Virus record (IMG/VR): IMGVR_UViG_3300008516_000146
Coordinates: 1-25,292 of that record
Strand: one strand, 5' to 3'
From: a virus
Length of the DNA: 25,292 nucleotides
Positions 3,104-13,082 of the stretch are shown here, piece by piece (positions within the stretch are counted from its first letter, which is position 1; each line of letters opens with the position of its first letter). A model generated the notes under the pieces. The model was not told the DNA's origin, searched no databases, and saw only the letters and a program-made list of their open reading frames with translations. The position numbers and the translations under genes are program-made.

Positions 3104-3376
3104 ATGAGTGAAATTTGGAATGATATTGATGGATTTGCTGGTTATTACCAGATAAGTAGTATTGGGCGAGTTAAAAGTATGTATCGTACATTTGGAGGCA
3201 GAACTATCAAAGAGAGAATACTGGCAACCAAAACGGGTAAGGGTGGTTATTTATGGGTTACGCTGTGTAAAAATGGAGACATGTCCTATTTTATGATTCA
3301 TAGGCTAGTGGCGTGTGTATTTATTCCTAATCCAGAGAATAATCAGAACTTACGATTGTATAGATTTAGTCTATAA
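3104..3376 (+). pseudogene. truncated NUMOD4-type HNH homing endonuclease
   Basis: The N-terminus carries a clear NUMOD4 DNA-binding module (EIWNDIDGFAGYYQISSIGRVKS, given here as WxDIxGFxGYYQIS-GRVKS). A linker and the start of an HNH region follow (GGYLWVTL, then IHRLVACVFIPNPENN). In intact relatives the next residues supply the catalytic His-Asn-His (of the type NHIDGN...N). Here the frame runs into an unrelated LRLYRFSL tail and stops at 90 aa, and neither other forward frame restores the motif. It is therefore a remnant without a nuclease centre. It may still bind DNA. It points to past homing activity next to the terminase genes. Confidence 0.75.
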
Positions 3377-4945: not shown

Positions 4946-5120
4946 GCTTTCCATGACGGATATCGTATGGAAACTGGTTTGAATAAGAATAGTAGGCAAA
5001 ACAACGCTGAAAAAACTTAGATTAACCGCAAAGATTGAAAATAGAATTAAAATTAATTATAAACCACAGACTGCCTATTATTTTATTTATTGTTAGGTAT
5101 CTGTAAAAAATAAAAAAGCG

Positions 5121-5956: not shown

Positions 5957-6506
5957 AATAGCGAATACTATGAAAAAAGAATTTAAAATAAAAATCAGAA
6001 TGGATAATAGGGATGGGTCAGATGATCTTGCTTCACTTACATCTGATTGTGAAAGCGAATACAGCAACAACAAGGCAAAAGGAATGGTATCTGAATTATA
6101 TTACAAAACAGTAATAGCATCGAACGAAGAATCATTATTGCACATAAAATCAATGTATTCAGAGAAGGCTAAAGAAATTAGTCATTTATTAGTAAGGCTA
6201 GGTGCAGTCGAATTGAAAGAGAAAATTCAGACTCAAGTATTTAAGCTTAAAAAAGATAAAATATATAAGGTTATATATTCTGACGGTAGTTATTGCTTAT
6301 TGAGATACAGGTATCATAGGTATAAATTAAAATATAGCTCAATGGTTGATTTCTGGCTAGACGAAAACAGCGATAGCGAAGAACAGATGGTTAATGCATC
6401 TTCCTGGAATGGTGAGATTATGCTTAATAATATAGTAAAAATAATAAAGCCATCAATAGAAGAAAAAGAATTATTTAAAATCATAGACATTAAATCAAAA
6501 AGATAA
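5946..6506 (+). CDS. hypothetical protein, 186 aa, directly upstream of TerL
   Basis: A charged protein with a basic N-terminus (MKNRIANTMKKEFKIKIRMD), an acidic Ser-rich stretch (GSDDLASLTSDCESEYSNN) and a central/C-terminal part rich in beta-type sequence (KIYKVIYSDGSYCLLRYRYH) ending IIDIKSKR. An in-frame ATG at 5931 would add five residues; 5946 gives a tighter overlap with the preceding stop. It overlaps the TerL start as TAATG, so the two are probably translationally coupled. No family is recognised. Confidence 0.6.
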   Translation: MKNRIANTMKKEFKIKIRMDNRDGSDDLASLTSDCESEYSNNKAKGMVSELYYKTVIASNEESLLHIKSMYSEKAKEISHLLVRLGAVELKEKIQTQVFKLKKDKIYKVIYSDGSYCLLRYRYHRYKLKYSSMVDFWLDENSDSEEQMVNASSWNGEIMLNNIVKIIKPSIEEKELFKIIDIKSKR

Positions 6507-8743
6507 TGGCAGGAAAACAATTAAGAGCAGGTATAAACTACGCTTTTATTCACAATAATTTTGATTGGGATAATAATGGGAGTTATAATTTCCTTCTTCA
6601 AGGCAGTTCTGGCAGCGGAAAAACTTTCGATGCGCTAATTTTCATTCTCACATATTGCACTAACTACAAAAACAAAGGGTTAAGAATACTTATAACAAGA
6701 GAATCGTATGCAGCCACTAAAGATACCGTCCTTGCTGATTTCATTAGAATTCTAAAGGATGCTGGCATATATGATGAAAAAAATCACGTTCAGTCGCATC
6801 CACAAAAATATATACTGGAAGGAAATACAATAAGTTTTAAGGGACGAGATGATTCATCTTCGCATGGGCAACGTAATGATCTTATCTATTTTAATGAGTT
6901 AATGAACGATGATAATAGCTCAGCATTTGATCAACTAGAGGGTAGGTTAAGCGGAATATTTATAGCAGATTACAATCCGAAGTTTACAGCCCACTGGGTC
7001 TATGACAAGATAAAAAACAGACCAGACGTCAAATTTCTTAAAACAACATTCTTGACCTGTGCGTTTCTTCCTCCAAAAGAAAGATTGGCTAAATTAAGAT
7101 ACGAACCAACTCATCCAGAAGACAGGCATCTTCCAATGAAAGATCGCAGACCACACCCTGTAAATATTTCAGCAGGAACGGCAGATGAATACATGTGGAG
7201 AGTTTACGGAGAAGGTGAAGCAGCGGCAGCAGAGGGTATAATATTTCAACATGTTAAATGGATAGATAGGTTTCCTGACGGGATGGGATTTATTTACGGA
7301 ATGGATTTTGGATACACTGTTGATCCTTGTGTTATCGTGAAGTATGCAGAGGACAATATTAAAGACGAATCATTTGACGGTAATATATGGATTGAGTTAT
7401 TCAGTTACGAGCCGATGGAAACGCCGGAGGCTATAAACGAACACGCGATAGCAACTGGATTAAATATAAAAATAAAAACATTCGCAGATTCTTCAGATAA
7501 ACACATTTCAGAAAATAAAGGGTCAATTGAATTTGTAAAAGGATTGAAAAATATCGGATGGTCTAATATAGAAAAAGTAAAGAAGACAAAATCTATAATG
7601 TATTGGATAACATCTATGAAAAAAAAGAGAATACATATAGTTAAAAATCAATACTATAAAGAAGCTAAAAGAGAACAGGAGAATTATAGATTAAAAACAA
7701 TAAATGGATTCCAAATAAACCAACCGATAGATAAATTTAATCACTGCTTTATTGGGAATACATCAATATCAACAATCAATGGGGATGTGCAAATAAATAA
7801 ACTAAAACATGGTGATTTAGTTCTTACTTCCAATGGATACTTCCCAATATTGGAAGTATTTGACAATGGATTGCGCGAGGTATTTGAATATACGATAAAT
7901 TTTAGTAACTTTGCTGTTAAGTTAACATGCACTAGCGATCATTTAATAAAAACAGATAAGGGATGGAAAAAAATAAAACAGTTAAGGTCAATGGACAAGA
8001 TATACCTGTCCAAATGTTTGATGGGAAAAGTTACAAATTATATAAAGGAGAAAGATACTTTTCAAGAGGAGCGAAACGACTGCACATTGTCGTATGGAAG
8101 TACTATAATGGGGAAATACCAAGCGGACACGACATTCACCACAAAAACGAAAATCCATTCAATAACGACATATCTAATCTCGAAGTTATTGAAAGTTCAC
8201 TTCATCAAAGAAATCATCAAAAAGATAGGTTTAAAAACAATCCAGAATATTGGAATAAATTCCATTCAAGAGGGATTGAAGCAGCAAAGGAGTGGCATAA
8301 AAGCGAAGCTGGGAGGGAATGGCACAGAGAACACGCTAAAAAGTTTGATTTTGGGAATAAAACATTTGGTGAAAGAAAGTGTGAAATATGTGATTCTATG
8401 TTTGAGGCAAAAACATCTGAGCAGAGATTTTGCTCAAACAAATGCAAATCAAAATACAGAAGAATTATGGGATTTGATAACATTACGAAAATATGCGAAT
8501 ACTGCGGAGAAGAGTTCACCACAAGCAAATACAGCAAAGCAAGGGTATGTGCAGACTATGCTTGTCGTTGGGGTATCGGCAAGAGAAGATACAAAGAAAA
8601 AAATGGTTTATGATATTTCAGTAGCAAATACGCATGAGTATCTCGCAAACGGAGTTCTTGTGCATAATTGTTGGGACGGGGCTAGATATGCCCACATCGG
8701 ATGGAACACTAAAAAGCAAAGAGTATTCTGGGGTCAACAATAA
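6506..8743 (+). CDS. terminase large subunit precursor containing an intein
   Basis: Motor ATPase and nuclease that drives DNA into the prohead. The precursor has 745 residues. Walker A is GSSGSGKT (33-40), and Walker B LIYFNE (126-131) carries the catalytic Glu. The RNase H-like nuclease acids are Asp267 (in GMDFGY), Asp328 (in FADSSD) and Asp724 (in CWDGARY). Residues 414-721 are an intein inserted between FNH and CWDGARYAH, exactly at the third nuclease motif, so the enzyme can be active only after splicing. Removal leaves about 437 residues, a normal TerL length. The start overlaps the previous stop (TAATG). Downstream it is followed by the accessory cassettes rather than directly by the portal gene, which begins about 2.7 kb later. 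Confidence 0.92.
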   Translation: MAGKQLRAGINYAFIHNNFDWDNNGSYNFLLQGSSGSGKTFDALIFILTYCTNYKNKGLRILITRESYAATKDTVLADFIRILKDAGIYDEKNHVQSHPQKYILEGNTISFKGRDDSSSHGQRNDLIYFNELMNDDNSSAFDQLEGRLSGIFIADYNPKFTAHWVYDKIKNRPDVKFLKTTFLTCAFLPPKERLAKLRYEPTHPEDRHLPMKDRRPHPVNISAGTADEYMWRVYGEGEAAAAEGIIFQHVKWIDRFPDGMGFIYGMDFGYTVDPCVIVKYAEDNIKDESFDGNIWIELFSYEPMETPEAINEHAIATGLNIKIKTFADSSDKHISENKGSIEFVKGLKNIGWSNIEKVKKTKSIMYWITSMKKKRIHIVKNQYYKEAKREQENYRLKTINGFQINQPIDKFNHCFIGNTSISTINGDVQINKLKHGDLVLTSNGYFPILEVFDNGLREVFEYTINFSNFAVKLTCTSDHLIKTDKGWKKIKQLRSMDKIYLSKCLMGKVTNYIKEKDTFQEERNDCTLSYGSTIMGKYQADTTFTTKTKIHSITTYLISKLLKVHFIKEIIKKIGLKTIQNIGINSIQEGLKQQRSGIKAKLGGNGTENTLKSLILGIKHLVKESVKYVILCLRQKHLSRDFAQTNANQNTEELWDLITLRKYANTAEKSSPQANTAKQGYVQTMLVVGVSAREDTKKKMVYDISVANTHEYLANGVLVHNCWDGARYAHIGWNTKKQRVFWGQQ
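7745..8668 (+). other. intein within TerL (308 aa)
   Basis: A protein-splicing element. It begins at Cys414 with the block A pattern CFIGNTSISTINGD, followed by HGDLVL. Block B contains TxxH as TSDH (476-479) and continues DKGWKKIKQLRSMDKI, matching the usual GW..a..L..GD.I. The C-terminal blocks are VYDISVANTHEYLANG with His710, and VLVHN with His720-Asn721, followed by Cys722 of the C-extein. All splicing residues are present, so splicing should work. The roughly 190 codons between about 8015 and 8590 read no recognisable domain in this frame, because that stretch encodes an HNH endonuclease in the -1 frame instead. Confidence 0.9.
7963..8613 (+). CDS. HNH homing endonuclease encoded out of frame inside the intein
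   Basis: A complete 216-residue HNH nuclease in the -1 frame relative to TerL and wholly inside the intein. After a start that overlaps intein block B come GKSYKLYKGERYF and LHIVVWKYYNG, then the HNH core DIHHKNENPFNNDISNLE (57-74) and a linker helix. Two zinc-ribbon pairs follow: C140-C143/C157-C161 and C178-C181/C196-C201. The likely role is to cut intein-free terL alleles so that the intein is copied by repair. It may start at ATG 7963 (an in-frame TAA lies at 7957) or at ATG 8014, where homology-like sequence begins. No Shine-Dalgarno sequence is visible, so how it is translated is unclear. Confidence 0.85.
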   Translation: MEKNKTVKVNGQDIPVQMFDGKSYKLYKGERYFSRGAKRLHIVVWKYYNGEIPSGHDIHHKNENPFNNDISNLEVIESSLHQRNHQKDRFKNNPEYWNKFHSRGIEAAKEWHKSEAGREWHREHAKKFDFGNKTFGERKCEICDSMFEAKTSEQRFCSNKCKSKYRRIMGFDNITKICEYCGEEFTTSKYSKARVCADYACRWGIGKRRYKEKNGL

Positions 8744-8754
8744 TCACACTTATA

Positions 8755-8786
8755 TTTGCATATTAAATTTAATTATCTTACATTTG
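8755..8786 (+). promoter_or_regulatory. Bacteroidota-type promoter after TerL
   Basis: TTTG (8755-8758), a 20-nt spacer and TACATTTG (8779-8786) fit the -33/-7 consensus well. The predicted start falls at the left end of the structured element at 8788, so the transcript would begin with that fold and continue into the small gene at 8933. Confidence 0.6.
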
Positions 8787-8787
8787 A

Positions 8788-8906
8788 ATAACGGTTTGTG
8801 TATGTTTTGTCGTGCAAGAGATAATTAACTAAGTATTAACCATCGTTTCGATTAGCAAATCCGTTTTCAAAGTAATTAATGCACGATGAAATATAAACTT
8901 TGTTAT
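8788..8906 (+). repeat. attC-like structured element, copy 1
   Basis: The ends ATAAC (8788-8792) and GTTAT (8902-8906) pair. Inside, an arm starting GTGTATGTTTTGT (to 8810) partly pairs with ATGAAATATAAAC (8886-8898), CGTGCA (8811-8816) pairs with TGCACG (8880-8885), and TAATTA (8822-8827) with TAATTA (8873-8878). Copy 2 at 10127 has the same outer sequences but a different, still paired, inner stem. The layout resembles a folded integron attC site, but the core does not match the canonical GTTRRRY. A promoter-linked structured RNA is the alternative. Confidence 0.6.
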
Positions 8907-8932
8907 CGTTTCGGTTTTTATTTTTTCTTCCA

Positions 8933-9136
8933 TTGAAAAGGCCGTATATTTTATTTGATAGAAAAGATGATAATTCATTCTCGTGCTTTCATGTTGGGCT
9001 ACTTGGATGTAAATCTATAGAAGAAATTAAACATGGCAAAGATAGCGGCGGAATAGACATATGTTCCTATGTAGTCCATTTTAAAGACGACATCAAGATT
9101 AAGATAGATAATCCATTTTATGTATTCTTATCCTAA
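8933..9136 (+). CDS. hypothetical protein, about 67 aa, TTG start, cassette 1
   Basis: The frame from TTG 8933 reads LKRPYILFDRKDDNSFSCFH, continues through a Gly-rich SIEEIKHGKDSGGIDIC and ends NPFYVFLS. There is no ATG in this frame, so the start is uncertain. The residues upstream of 8933 are Phe/Leu-rich and probably untranslated. It begins about 30 nt after copy 1 of the attC-like element, matching the placement of the 10295 gene after copy 2. Its 3' end overlaps the leftward gene at 9128 by 9 nt. The function is unknown; it could be a decayed gene. Confidence 0.45.
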   Translation: MKRPYILFDRKDDNSFSCFHVGLLGCKSIEEIKHGKDSGGIDICSYVVHFKDDIKIKIDNPFYVFLS

Positions 9137-9328
9137 ATTATTCTTTTTGTTTCCGTCTGGTTTAGATACTGGGGTTTTTATTCCATTTATCTTTTTGACT
9201 ACATATTTCTTGTAATTTCCACCTTCGATTTCTTTGACAAATTGAGTTCTTGTCATTTCTTTATTTTTGGTGGTGTCGAGAAATTTTTCGTTTCTCCCTG
9301 TTGGAGATTCTTTAATTACCTTGATCAT
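9128..9328 (-). CDS. DUF3892-like small protein, 66 aa
   Basis: The C-terminal half contains MTRTQFVKEIEGGNYKKYVV, then KKINGIKTPVSKPDGNKKNNLG. This follows the pattern I associate with the DUF3892 family (an IE.G.Y..Y.V..i.g..tPvs.PDg..NNLG type). The family has no established function as far as I know. An N-terminal extension of about 24 residues (MIKVIKESPTGRNEKF...) precedes it; an internal ATG at the MTRTQ residue is an alternative start. It has its own leader and promoter, nearly identical to those of the gene at 10464-10760 although the proteins are unrelated. The 3' end converges with the rightward gene at 8933. Confidence 0.65.
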   Translation of the reverse strand: MIKVIKESPTGRNEKFLDTTKNKEMTRTQFVKEIEGGNYKKYVVKKINGIKTPVSKPDGNKKNNLG

Positions 9329-9332
9329 TTTA

Positions 9333-9390
9333 GTTAATTTTTAGTTTATGATTTTATCAAGAACACGTTTCGGAGAAATGTACCCCCCAA
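9333..9390 (-). promoter_or_regulatory. leftward promoter and leader of cassette 1
   Basis: On the minus strand a G-run (9383-9388) is followed directly by TACATTTC (9375-9382), a -7-like box, and then a leader containing CATAAACTAAAAATTAAC (9333-9350). The same 18-nt leader and a G-run/TACATTTT arrangement recur at 10764-10830 before the corresponding gene of cassette 2. Confidence 0.5.
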
Positions 9391-9498
9391 TTTTGTTTTA
9401 GTTGTTTTAGTTCATTTTAAATTTTTAGGCAATGAATCGGTTTGGAAAATATTTTTACAATGTTTTATTTACAATAAAATGGATATTTATTGGCTGTA

Positions 9499-9960
9499 CT
9501 ACTTATCTACTATTTGAAGCGTTATTAAAATATCTTTCCAGTTAGCGATAACAAAACCTACAAAACCTCCGATTAAGGCTAGATAAAAGCCCCATCTTGC
9601 ATATTTGAAAGATTCAATTGTCTTTACTCTTATTGTATTTTCTTGGTTTTCTTTCTTAGTGGCTGATTTGTAACCTCCCTTTCTTTTAAATTCATTTCCT
9701 AGTTCCGTTATTGATAGGTTACCATTATTGTCCTTGACTATGTATCCTTTATTCAATAATTCCTTTTCAAAAGACTTCTTCATGTAATCTTCCCATTCGT
9801 ATAACGGCATCATGTCAGCAATAACATCCATATTTATTTTTGATGAATATGTTATATCTGAAATTTCATTAAAGTCAGGAGTTTCATAAAACATTAACAG
9901 CGTCAATATTTCATCTAAAATATCATTTCTTACTATTTGTTTATACTGTTTTTCTTCCAT
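9499..9960 (-). CDS. predicted C-tail-anchored membrane protein, 153 aa, cassette 1
   Basis: About 115 soluble residues are followed by one hydrophobic segment near residues 122-141 (ARWGFYLALIGGFVGFVIAN) and a short tail, giving C-tail anchoring. The soluble part is helical, and the stretch LLNKGYIVKDNNGNLSITEL, then GNEFKRKGGY, resembles the wing of a winged-helix domain; this is a guess from pattern. In the other cassette the same slot holds a different protein (10851-11222), also with a membrane segment near its C-terminus. The upstream side carries a hairpin and the shared TTTTAAACTGAACGAT motif. The function is unknown; accessory or exclusion roles are possible. Confidence 0.6.
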   Translation of the reverse strand: MEEKQYKQIVRNDILDEILTLLMFYETPDFNEISDITYSSKINMDVIADMMPLYEWEDYMKKSFEKELLNKGYIVKDNNGNLSITELGNEFKRKGGYKSATKKENQENTIRVKTIESFKYARWGFYLALIGGFVGFVIANWKDILITLQIVDK

Positions 9961-10025
9961 GATTCATTTCTTTTTCTTTCCCAACAGTTTTACAAAAACT
10001 GAATACCCCAAACATTTTACTTTTC
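9961..10025 (-). promoter_or_regulatory. upstream region of the 9499-9960 gene with a 7-bp hairpin
   Basis: CAGTTTT (9985-9991) and AAAACTG (9995-10001) form a tight hairpin in the leader, and a G-run (minus-strand TTTGGGGTATT) lies just upstream of it. The run resembles the G-run before the other leftward gene of this cassette. No clear -7 box is seen. Confidence 0.3.
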
Positions 10026-10079
10026 TTTTAAACTGAACGATGACTAGTTTGTCTGTTCATATTATATGAATCCACTAGT
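10026..10079 (-). repeat. cassette-end element A, inverted-repeat site
   Basis: The shared motif TTTTAAACTGAACGAT (10026-10041) abuts ACTAGT (10043-10048), which pairs with ACTAGT (10074-10079). Inside is the near-perfect palindrome 10056-10070 (TTCATAT, T, ATATGAA). On the minus strand the element ends GTCATCGTTCAG, close to GTTATCGTT at the ends of the other elements. It marks the upstream end of the leftward gene pair of cassette 1. Confidence 0.5.
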
Positions 10080-10094
10080 TTTTTCTACTTTTTG

Positions 10095-10125
10095 ATTGAT
10101 TATTTAAAAAATTATTGTATATTTA
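10095..10125 (+). promoter_or_regulatory. promoter at attC-like copy 2
   Basis: ATTG (10095-10098), a 19-nt spacer and TATATTTA (10118-10125) approximate the Bacteroidota -33/-7 pattern. They stand in the same position relative to copy 2 as the better promoter does to copy 1. The predicted start is at the left end of the structured element. Confidence 0.45.
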
Positions 10126-10126
10126 A

Positions 10127-10253
10127 ATAACGGTTTGTGTATGTTTTGTTCGCCATTAACAACTAGTCACATTTCATACACTATTTATAGATAATTAATT
10201 TAATATAAACTAGCGTACTTTTGATTGGCGAATGAAATATGACACTTTGTTAT
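10127..10253 (+). repeat. attC-like structured element, copy 2
   Basis: The outer pairing is ATAAC (10127-10131) with GTTAT (10249-10253). The left arm is identical to copy 1 over 24 nt from 10126. The next pairing has GTGTATGTTTTGT facing ATGAAATATGACAC, fully paired as RNA if wobbles are allowed and one G is bulged. The inner stem is TCGCCA (10150-10155) with TGGCGA (10226-10231), where copy 1 has CGTGCA/TGCACG. Both inner stems pair although the sequences differ, which indicates that the fold is conserved rather than the letters. Confidence 0.6.
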
Positions 10254-10294
10254 CGTGCGTTGTTTGTCTTTAATCGGTAAATAAAAATTTATTC

Positions 10295-10489
10295 ATGAGT
10301 AATCCGTCTAATTTACAATTTTGTTATAATTCAAAGTCGTTTGTTTTTGATCCTAAATTATCTAAGAATCAGCACAAAGCATTAAATGATTTGCTAGATG
10401 CTCGAAATATATTAATAGGCATAGATGATAAGAAGGCATTGAAAGAAGTCATTGTGCATTTATTTAGAGCATTAAAAATTCAAGGATAA
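10295..10489 (+). CDS. hypothetical protein, 64 aa, cassette 2
   Basis: An ATG-started protein, MSNPSNLQFCYNSKSFVFDP, then KLSKNQHKALNDLLDARNIL and a C-terminal helix ALKEVIVHLFRALKIQG. It is soluble, of mixed beta then helical pattern, and not recognised. It begins about 40 nt after the end of attC-like copy 2 and converges with the leftward gene at 10464, overlapping it by 26 nt. It holds the same slot as the 8933 gene of cassette 1 but shares no evident sequence with it. Confidence 0.55.
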   Translation: MSNPSNLQFCYNSKSFVFDPKLSKNQHKALNDLLDARNILIGIDDKKALKEVIVHLFRALKIQG

Positions 10490-10760
10490 ATTCTTTTGTA
10501 GTATTCGTGTTGGTTGATTTTGCTTGATTTAATATTTGTTCTCTTAATTTTGTTTCGTATTCTGGGTTCATATTTTCGCAAATTATATCAATTGCTTCGT
10601 TAATATTTGAAAATTGAACTGCGTTCTTATTATTAATGTCTTTCGAAATCCTAAAATCAAATGGATTGGTGGCATTGAAACTTGGGTATTTCCCTGTTAA
10701 AATAATTTTTCCATTATTTATAATGTCGAAAACTTTGTCTGATTTTTCTTCTCTAGTCAT
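10464..10760 (-). CDS. hypothetical protein, 98 aa, cassette 2
   Basis: A soluble charged protein that starts MTREEKSDKVFDIINNGKII and ends TKEFILEFLML. It contains a FSNINEAIDIICENMNPEYE helix. I do not recognise it, and it is unlike the DUF3892-type protein in the matching slot of cassette 1. Its leader and promoter region are nearly identical to that gene's (18-nt leader, G-run, TACATTTT), so the two are probably regulated alike. Its 3' end overlaps the rightward gene at 10295. Confidence 0.6.
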   Translation of the reverse strand: MTREEKSDKVFDIINNGKIILTGKYPSFNATNPFDFRISKDINNKNAVQFSNINEAIDIICENMNPEYETKLREQILNQAKSTNTNTTKEFILEFLML

Positions 10761-10763
10761 AAT

Positions 10764-10830
10764 GTTAATTTTTAGTTTATGTTTTTAAATTATTCTTACA
10801 TCAACACATTTTGAAAAAATGTAAACCCCC
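10764..10830 (-). promoter_or_regulatory. leftward promoter and leader of cassette 2
   Basis: On the minus strand a G-run (10826-10830) precedes TACATTTT (10816-10823), followed by a leader with CATAAACTAAAAATTAAC (10764-10781). This duplicates the arrangement at 9333-9390. Confidence 0.5.
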
Positions 10831-10850
10831 AAGCGTGGGATAGTTTGTTT

Positions 10851-11222
10851 TTAGTCATGTACACCAAAGTCAAATATTCCTTGCCTTATTGCTATAAAAA
10901 GCATTATTAAAATTGTCAACGCCATGAGTACCACTATCGTTATATGCCTTTTGCTTTGTTTGTCTAATCTTTTATTGGGATGGTATGGTTTAATTAATTT
11001 AAGAAAAAACCACAGTAACCGCCACAAGAAATAAGGCTTATAAGGAACAGGAACGAACTCCATGTTGCCGTGTTTATAAAGTTTATCGCTAACTTCTGTG
11101 TATTGTTCTACATGGTTTCTTCCATAGAAATTTACTCCACGATCATTGTTATTACCAACATCAAATTGATTGAACCTGAATTTATCCCTTCGTTTATTAT
11201 ATGACTTTTCTATTTCATTCAT
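10851..11222 (-). CDS. membrane protein, 123 aa, cassette 2
   Basis: An N-terminal soluble part rich in Asn, Asp and Arg (MNEIEKSYNKRRDKFRFNQF) leads to an aromatic stretch PYFLWRLLWFFLKLIKPYHP (a possible amphipathic or re-entrant helix) and then one clear transmembrane segment, ITIVVLMALTILIMLFIAI, near residues 94-112. A short tail (RQGIFDFGVHD) follows. The membrane segment near the C-terminus matches the topology of the 153-aa protein in cassette 1, without sequence likeness. It has the same TTTTAAACTGAACGAT motif and a hairpin upstream. The function is unknown. Confidence 0.6.
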   Translation of the reverse strand: MNEIEKSYNKRRDKFRFNQFDVGNNNDRGVNFYGRNHVEQYTEVSDKLYKHGNMEFVPVPYKPYFLWRLLWFFLKLIKPYHPNKRLDKQSKRHITIVVLMALTILIMLFIAIRQGIFDFGVHD

Positions 11223-11247
11223 TTCCTATTTTGTCTTCAAATTCTTA

Positions 11248-11308
11248 TTTTAAACTGAACGATAACTGAGTATATGAATTGTAATATTTTCATTATGATT
11301 TATATACT
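11248..11308 (-). repeat. cassette-end element B, inverted-repeat site
   Basis: TTTTAAACTGAACGAT (11248-11263) repeats the motif of element A. Beside it, AGTATAT (11269-11275) pairs with ATATACT (11302-11308), with partial pairing continuing inward. On the minus strand the element ends CAGTTATCGTTCAG, so it carries the GTTATCGTT also found at the right end of attC-like copy 1. It closes cassette 2 just before the portal promoter. Confidence 0.5.
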
Positions 11309-11325
11309 TTTTTATTCAAATTTTT

Positions 11326-11432: not shown

Positions 11433-13082
11433 ATGTTATCTTTTATAGAGTTAAAATCTATTATTGAATCAAAGCCTGACCCTAGGATAATTGCAGCTAG
11501 GGAAATGAGCAATAAGCTGGTCTTGCACGTAGATGGTGTAGGATTACAGGATTTCCTTGCCCGTATAAACAACTACGAAAACGAAGAACAGTTTAAGGCA
11601 CGTGAGAAACATGCAATTTCAAATAAGTTTATCACAGAGGAACTACTCCGACCAACAGACAATGCATTTAATGCCCGTGGTGGTTCTAAAAACTACAAAT
11701 TCAAAACAGATTCAGAATTAAAAGAGATTCAGTTCACAAATAAGCTTTCAGAGATAAGAAATTCTCATTCTCTTAGTTGGTATATTGAAAATGAATGGTT
11801 TAATAAATTTATAACAGACCCAAATGGGCTTATCGTTATTGAATCAACCGAAGAAGGAGAAGAGGCGTATCCCACGTATAAATCTATTCATTCGATAAAA
11901 GGATACAAACAAAATGGAGTATTCGTTGATTGGGTTGTATTTGAACCTCACGAAGAAATAAAAACAGAAAAAATAGGGTTATCCTCAGAAATCATTAAAA
12001 GATTTTGGGCAGTCGATGAGGTGAATTGGTATTTAGTAAAACAGGAAGCCGGAAAAGTAATTATAGAAAACGTAATCCCACATGGATTCAATAGAACTCC
12101 GGCGATGCTATGTTCGAGTATTGTGGATAACGTTACCGGATGGAAAAAATCACCAATAGATGCTCAGGTTGAATTATTAAACAAATACGTTGTATCCCAT
12201 TCTGTCCTAAATATAGCAGAGTTTTTCCATAATTACCCACAAGTATATGAGTATGCTGATGACTGCGTTAGATGCGGTGGTAGTGGAAATCTAAATGAAA
12301 CTTTCCCTGATAAGCCATATGAGAAGTGTCCTAATTGTCAAAATGGTAGATTTGTTAAAAAGGATGTTACGGATGTTACGTATATGAAGGTGGCGAAAGA
12401 TAAGGACACGCCTATGTTGACAGTTCCTCCCAAGGGCGTTGTTGACATGCCTACTGAACCATGGGAATTGATGATCAAGTCGGTAGACAGAACGTGGAAT
12501 AGAATTTTCTTTTCTCACTGGGGAACAGTAGTATCAAGAGAAGGTAAAAACGAAACAGCTACCGGAAGATATATTGATGCACAGCCTGTAAATAACAGAC
12601 TTAATAAATATTCAAAATCAATAGAACAAGCGCATACAATTATAGCGAACTTTTTAGGTAATTTTTATTTCCCATTAACATTCGACAAGGCTTTTATTCA
12701 ATATGGTCGCAGATACCTTATAGAAACACCTGATCAAATTTGGGAAAAGTACCTAAAGGCTAAATTAGAAAAAGCCCCAGTTTCAACTTTGGATATTCTT
12801 TTGTCTCAGTATTTAGAATCTGAATTTAGGGAAAATGAGCAAATGTACATCGTAGAAACGAAGAAAGTAAAATTAGAACCATTCGTACATTGGGATATAG
12901 CATTAGTAAGAGAATCCCTTACTATATCAAATAAAGACAAACAAAGAAAAGAGTTCTTTGGCGAATGGGTGCAAACAAAATCAACAGAAGAGATGTTGTC
13001 CAGCGGTATAGAATCGTTAAGAGGCGATTTAAATAAATATGTTAAATTAAAAGTAATTAATGATGAAAGTAAAGTCAAGTAA
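11433..13082 (+). CDS. portal protein
   Basis: Forms the ring at the capsid vertex through which TerL pumps DNA. The 549-residue size, the position before scaffold and capsid genes, and the alpha/beta body with VDWVVFEPHEEI and NRTPAMLCSSIVDN fit the portals of Bacteroidota siphoviruses. A four-Cys cluster, C278-x2-C281-GGSG and C299-x2-C302, probably binds zinc; I associate such a knuckle with portals of this phage group. The C-terminal third (KAKLEKAPVSTLDILLSQYL, then EEMLSSGIESLRGDL) is helical. It overlaps the next gene by 23 nt. The portal call rests on order, size and pattern. Confidence 0.8.
   Translation: MLSFIELKSIIESKPDPRIIAAREMSNKLVLHVDGVGLQDFLARINNYENEEQFKAREKHAISNKFITEELLRPTDNAFNARGGSKNYKFKTDSELKEIQFTNKLSEIRNSHSLSWYIENEWFNKFITDPNGLIVIESTEEGEEAYPTYKSIHSIKGYKQNGVFVDWVVFEPHEEIKTEKIGLSSEIIKRFWAVDEVNWYLVKQEAGKVIIENVIPHGFNRTPAMLCSSIVDNVTGWKKSPIDAQVELLNKYVVSHSVLNIAEFFHNYPQVYEYADDCVRCGGSGNLNETFPDKPYEKCPNCQNGRFVKKDVTDVTYMKVAKDKDTPMLTVPPKGVVDMPTEPWELMIKSVDRTWNRIFFSHWGTVVSREGKNETATGRYIDAQPVNNRLNKYSKSIEQAHTIIANFLGNFYFPLTFDKAFIQYGRRYLIETPDQIWEKYLKAKLEKAPVSTLDILLSQYLESEFRENEQMYIVETKKVKLEPFVHWDIALVRESLTISNKDKQRKEFFGEWVQTKSTEEMLSSGIESLRGDLNKYVKLKVINDESKVK

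Follow-up and report, generated by a model that had tools for sequence, protein, structure and literature searches.

Twin accessory units between the terminase and portal genes of a Bacteroidota phage as probable integron-type cassettes

The exchange of accessory genes among phages is commonly attributed to homologous or illegitimate recombination. Integron attC sites are cut on their bottom strand at the letters AA|C. Sites of the attC type have also been described in virulent phages, and 17 clusters of attC sites lacking integron-integrases (CALINs) were found among 10,705 phage genomes (Qi et al. 2023, PMC9892861); Polaribacter phage P12002L carries a CALIN with two methyltransferases, and IntI1 recombined its site P12002L_attC2 with attI1 (Qi et al. 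2023, PMC9892861). The subject of the present study is a pair of small accessory units that lie between the genes for the terminase large subunit (TerL) and the portal protein in the virus record IMGVR_UViG_3300008516_000146 of IMG/VR, all 25,292 bases of which are referred to here as the window. The two units (8785-10097 and 10124-11318) have a common plan and common non-coding parts, with different proteins, and each opens with an attC-like hairpin (elements A1 and A2). We find that they are probably integron-type cassettes stacked within the head genes of a Bacteroidota phage and mobilised in trans, which supports and extends the cassette idea put forward in an original prediction made from the letters of this DNA.

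Three non-coding blocks recur unchanged between the units, as had been predicted: the left arm AATAACGGTTTGTGTATGTTTTGT over 24 nt (36/40 over 8771-8810 and 10110-10149), the leader GTTAATTTTTAGTTTATG over 18 nt (23/24 over 9333-9356 and 10764-10787) and the core of the end site TTTTAAACTGAACGAT over 16 nt (21/23 over 10023-10045 and 11245-11267). Identical 24- and 18-mers inside 2.5 kb are far beyond what chance would produce. The list of open reading frames (ORFs) confirms that both units also keep the same gene order, a small rightward gene, an overlapping convergent leftward gene and a leftward gene with a hydrophobic segment near the C-terminus. The membrane segment proposed for this last protein is strong in unit 2 (Kyte-Doolittle value, KD, 3.1) and weak in unit 1 (KD 1.6), and the promoter proposed for each unit is likewise clearer in one of them: TTTG-N20-TACATTTG adjoins A1, and the match before A2 is weaker (TATATTTA at 10118-10125). 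Promoter and leader repeats belong to the frame and are not independent evidence. BLASTP shows no similarity between the cargo partners of the two units, which are thus as unlike as first described and are not recognisable as diverged duplicates by sequence comparison.

The hairpins are not confined to the window, but belong to a large family found in Bacteroidota viruses and chromosomes. When one base is left free, the left arm occurs in at least 119 viral stretches, a count to be read knowing that 15 specified bases could match similarly often by chance; about 60 distinct left-arm matches are also followed by a candidate right arm, and in many of them the two arms are clearly complementary. 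A first, hand-chosen set of 23 aligned examples supports R boxes TAAC/GTTA and a long L stem, and a search with a model from these examples, followed by realignment, gave a set of 96 diverse elements. Members of the family combine the R boxes TAAC/GTTA with a spacer that is asymmetric and unpaired, and with a long stem whose sequence varies but which keeps two conserved G.T pairs; the tip varies as well. Stem cells are paired in 93% of cases among the 96 elements, with letters changing while pairing holds; covariation is 0.49 vs 0.14 in shuffled alignments and <0.1 with slid partners, and double-change cells number 332 vs 102 shuffled (0/500), figures favoured by the fitting of this alignment to the structure, with which the hand-chosen set nevertheless agrees. 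Two positions on the TAACGG strand are mostly G.T (83/91 and 68/92), and bulges occur in some members, A2 having one. The consensus RYYYAAC ... GTTRRRY is fitted by some members (GCCTAAC, GTTATGC); the window sites read GAATAAC (A1) or AAATAAC (A2) and GTTATCG, with TAAC and GTTA present. Rfam holds no match to the family above gathering score, and phage records searched at the nucleotide level with 4 kb of window sequence, or with a single element, gave almost nothing because the elements are too diverged. In six viral loci (L014, L061, L110, L019, L090 and L121) the next gene has its start codon within the loop of the element, so that the right arm is coding and often specifies a ...TIPVV... 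peptide.

Both window elements adopt, like the family as a whole, a single-strand fold in which the R and L boxes pair, the spacer is unpaired and the tip varies. When the family stem is fixed, A1 forms 18 pairs and A2 forms 20, values reached in 0/5000 shuffles of either element; minimum-energy folding alone does not single them out (z -0.5 and -1.2). A profile built from 150 elements, none from the window, ranks A2 (E 3.5e-7) and A1 (1.1e-6) first and second within the window and also finds the element of another phage locus, L056 (E 2.5e-8). The predicted attC-like fold is real. A possible third, weak hairpin element lies between ORFs at 4968-5099 on the + strand (18.4 bits and E 0.11 with R2, one of our family models; E 0.056 with a sequence profile).

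Elsewhere in the family the elements form arrays, with at least 22 copies standing between consecutive co-directional small ORFs in one 71-kb viral contig, and in 54/172 cases the TAA of the element is itself the stop codon of the upstream gene. Three unrelated contig pairs, read base by base, hold a common module that runs from TAAC to the stop codon TAA of its gene; the sequences on either side are unrelated. A systematic search for such exchange over 302 viral loci gave 27 isolated modules at 85% identity or more, and of their 54 ends 27 fall no more than 8 nt from a TAAC edge and 6 at a GTTA edge, where about 0.5 would be expected for each. The crossover of the family is thus at AA|C (G|TT). 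The frame of the window itself recurs with other cargo in two further phages. L056, between TerL and portal, has the promoter (TTTG-N19-TACCTTTG, arranged with the element as at A1), element, small gene, convergent gene, membrane gene and end site; its cargo differs, and the tail of its membrane gene is 50% identical to residues 82-121 (40 residues) of the 123-aa protein of the window (E 5e-10, 11 proteins compared). L135, whose contig ends before any TerL, keeps a partial element beside its portal gene, together with the end-site leader and two proteins with membrane segments; here too the cargo is other than in the window. In the portal relatives L010-L013 this interval is filled by other small genes and lacks such an element. 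The proposal that cargo is exchanged within a fixed frame is therefore borne out by L056 and L135 and by the family-wide swaps that end at TAA|C.

Integron integrases that score over the curated cut-off are found in 105/395 sampled Bacteroidota genomes. In three genomes with IntI, a site with the same R box, spacer and first L letters stands ~1 kb, or about one gene, beyond intI, and its TAACGG strand is the classical bottom strand. We rejected the idea that Bacteroidota IntI arrays are full of these elements: R2 matches in 45 IntI-positive genomes are sparse and off the IntI contig, the 20-kb flanks of IntI hold few R2 matches, and a simple attC scan of the IntI loci gave nothing clear. The IntI-negative comparison gave 6/45 vs 9/45 genomes, and the presence of IntI is therefore no clear predictor of the elements. 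IntI with the IntI-specific insert was also sought in 8 viral records, among them a second contig, of 35 kb, that is near-identical to the window, and gave no TIGR02249 match over the cut-off. As elements at IntI loci were few, the search turned to a family of IntI-like recombinases that lack this insert.

Such an enzyme was found in Bacteroidota genome G086, where ~16 elements in 19 kb, with genes mostly antisense to the TAACGG strand, form an array that ends beside a divergent tyrosine recombinase, whose match to the integron-integrase profile leaves out the IntI-specific insert. For a set made up of collected relatives of the G069 enzyme, which is similar to that of G086, R2 elements occur in 14/20 genomic segments around the recombinase genes (10 at E<0.001) vs 1/20 Xer-like controls. 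The sole positive control segment has three weak elements (L440 4300-5798, near recombinase G174). An insert of 31 columns is absent from the 22 insert-less recombinases compared and present in 11 IntI. In a tree the insert-less family falls with IntI and not with Xer (support 0.87); it is sister to IntI when gappy columns are removed (0.78), and the untrimmed tree nests IntI inside it, so the branching order of the two is not fixed. Viruses encode the enzyme as well: in a 168-kb viral contig a 13-element array leads to an insert-less recombinase 0.2 kb away, and further viral loci with one, which had been collected only for element or leader motifs, are L020 (identical protein), L105, L130/L134/L136 and L284 (partial). 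In L134 (2625-3464, - strand), as in L130 and L136, the recombinase lies ~0.4 kb from an element and is split into two ORFs in one frame with a stop between. A description of the insert-less family with arrays was not found in the open-access literature.

The likeness to cassette systems goes beyond the form of the hairpin. With integron cassettes and CALINs the family has in common the R boxes, the unpaired spacer, the variable paired stem, the crossover letters and the arrays of small ORFs, which on chromosomes read away from a tyrosine recombinase. It appears to differ from integron attC sites in carrying mostly conserved G.T pairs where those have distinct extrahelical bases, and it differs from integrons in that the phage genes are oriented opposite to the classical direction and the recombinase beside most arrays seen here is without the IntI insert. 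XerC and XerD, of the same superfamily, share this last trait with the array recombinases; unlike the latter, they do not group with IntI and are only rarely accompanied by elements. P12002L, the Bacteroidota phage among the attC carriers mentioned above, has 10-12 R2 matches spread throughout its genome; those at 30004-30060 and 30905-30959 lie around its methyltransferase genes, and members also occur between these genes. The present family differs from the earlier phage sites in extending over hundreds of viral stretches, with mapped swap ends, an associated recombinase family and a position in the head module.

We propose that each unit opens with a folded recombination site of the attC family, and that a tyrosine recombinase, either IntI or a member of the IntI-related insert-less family found beside such arrays, would act on the single-stranded fold. 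Cassettes would be joined at TAA|C, so that one could replace another, and the promoter abutting TAAC would transcribe whatever is joined there from its first base, as in the Pc-attI arrangement of integrons. We infer that the two units of the window arrived by joining of this kind and that an enzyme of this kind was responsible.

Several observations weigh against this proposal. No recombinase was found in the window or in the examined segments of the near-identical 35-kb contig (L005, L009), for which reason we suppose that it is supplied in trans, and the association of recombinases with arrays is correlative. The cargo of neither unit was found elsewhere as a complete module. Of the two inverted-repeat end sites originally proposed, B1' is degenerate (10036-10097), and B2' is weak, scoring at 11259-11318 in model R2 and being missed by a sequence-only profile in the window search. 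Models R1 and R2 were built with window sequences, so that for A1 and A2 the independent tests are the window-free profile and the fixed stem. The equation of P12002L_attC2 with one particular R2 match is drawn from gene context. Finally, the genes of phage arrays run with the TAACGG strand, opposite to those of integrons, and a hairpin that begins at stop codons on the sense strand could also be an mRNA element.

The last point is the core of the strongest alternative, in which phage operons carry the hairpin as a structured leader of their mRNA, with a role in regulation or processing, and gene plus leader form a natural unit of mosaic exchange that mimics a cassette. Such a leader would be in keeping with the sense orientation that the hairpin nearly always has to both neighbours in viral arrays (of 202 viral elements, 140 have both neighbours in sense to the TAACGG strand and 3 have both in antisense), with two near-invariant G.U pairs on the sense strand, with conserved letters that reach past GTTA towards the next start codon, and with the promoters adjoining A1 and the L056 element. 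On bacterial chromosomes, however, both neighbours are antisense to the TAACGG strand for 7 of 10 elements, where a leader could not act, modules end at TAA|C far more often than at GTTA (27 vs 6), and the elements are associated with IntI and IntI-like recombinases; we regard the leader explanation as unlikely. Tandem duplication of one accessory unit, followed by fast divergence of the genes while selection for expression kept the non-coding parts, would account for the adjacent copies, the identical blocks and the common gene plan, but is very improbable given partner proteins without similarity beside identical 24-nt and 18-nt non-coding blocks, other phages that hold the frame with yet other cargo, and module exchange across the family. 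Least credible of all is a repeat like repetitive extragenic palindromes or miniature inverted-repeat transposable elements, spread by a transposase and inserted behind stop codons without cassette function, since the short imperfect hairpins, many intergenic copies and ~120-135 bp blocks common to unrelated flanks that suggest it are found together with common modules that often take in the downstream gene up to the next TAA|C, and with ordered arrays that hold about one gene for each hairpin and lie next to a tyrosine recombinase.

The features of the two units and their neighbours are collected in Table 1. Searches of the cargo against Pfam, PHROGs, NCBIfam and PADLOC identified one DUF3892-like protein only, in cassette 1, which shares 50-53% identity with proteins from phages of Anaerostipes and Lactobacillus; other weak matches in the family libraries were judged to be chance. 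Inside the intein of TerL, in a different reading frame, lies an HNH endonuclease ORF (7963-8613, + strand; PF13392, 1e-14), and across the same 650 bases the TerL frame also stays open. A NUMOD4-bearing HNH-type ORF at 3104-3376 (+ strand, 3e-15) is apparently a truncated homing endonuclease.

Table 1. Positions of the cassette features and flanking genes in the window
Feature	Positions	Strand	Basis
TerL with intein, left neighbour of the cassettes	6506..8743	+	Pfam Terminase_3 1.6e-9, Intein_splicing 3.7e-9; PHROG terminase large subunit 5.9e-24
Promoter-like sequence, Bacteroidota type, TTTG-N20-TACATTTG	8755..8786	+	read in sequence; ends 2 nt before TAAC of A1
Element A1, attC-type hairpin; TAAC edge 8789, GTTA 8902	8785..8909	+	window-free profile, 18 pairs, R2 60.6 bits
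Cassette 1 small gene, 67 aa, TTG start	8933..9136	+	ORF; no Pfam or PHROG match
Cassette 1 convergent gene, 66 aa, DUF3892-like / PHROG 11939	9128..9328	-	Pfam DUF3892 5e-5, PHROG_11939 2e-23
Leader common to both units, upstream of 9128-9328	9333..9356	-	23/24 identical to 10764-10787
Cassette 1 gene, 153 aa, weak hydrophobic segment near C-terminus	9499..9960	-	ORF; KD19 1.61 at 121; no confident family
End site B1', TTTTAAACTGAACGAT and degenerate hairpin	10023..10097	.	16-nt repeat; hairpin part 10036-10097 not scored as family member
Element A2, attC-type hairpin; TAAC edge 10128, GTTA 10249	10124..10256	+	window-free profile, 20 pairs, R2 54.4 bits
Cassette 2 small gene, 64 aa	10295..10489	+	ORF; no family match
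Cassette 2 convergent gene, 98 aa	10464..10760	-	ORF; no confident family
Leader common to both units, upstream of 10464-10760	10764..10787	-	repeat comparison
Cassette 2 gene, 123 aa, strong C-terminal membrane segment	10851..11222	-	ORF; KD19 3.13
End site B2', TTTTAAACTGAACGATAAC and hairpin, possible family member, poor right R box	11245..11318	+	11259-11318 R2 30.7 bits, E 8e-5
Portal protein, right neighbour of the cassettes	11433..13082	+	PHROG_7376 portal 2e-42

The cargo of the probable cassettes, small soluble proteins together with a C-terminally anchored membrane protein, may serve host takeover, exclusion or anti-defence. It is an evenly balanced question whether Bacteroidota and their phages have a whole cassette system parallel to integrons, with its own attC family, an insert-less IntI-related recombinase, classical arrays on chromosomes and reversed ones in phages, and some viral contigs that carry the recombinase; in that case the units of the window would be cargo that this system has placed among the head genes. 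A family of plug-in sites with mapped junctions would provide a specific, testable route by which small genes could be swapped among phages or between a phage and its host, and such sites would show where to mine uncharacterised phage genes, possibly for host takeover, exclusion or anti-defence. An insert-less relative of IntI beside attC-type arrays also bears on the origin of integrons and on the purpose of the insert.

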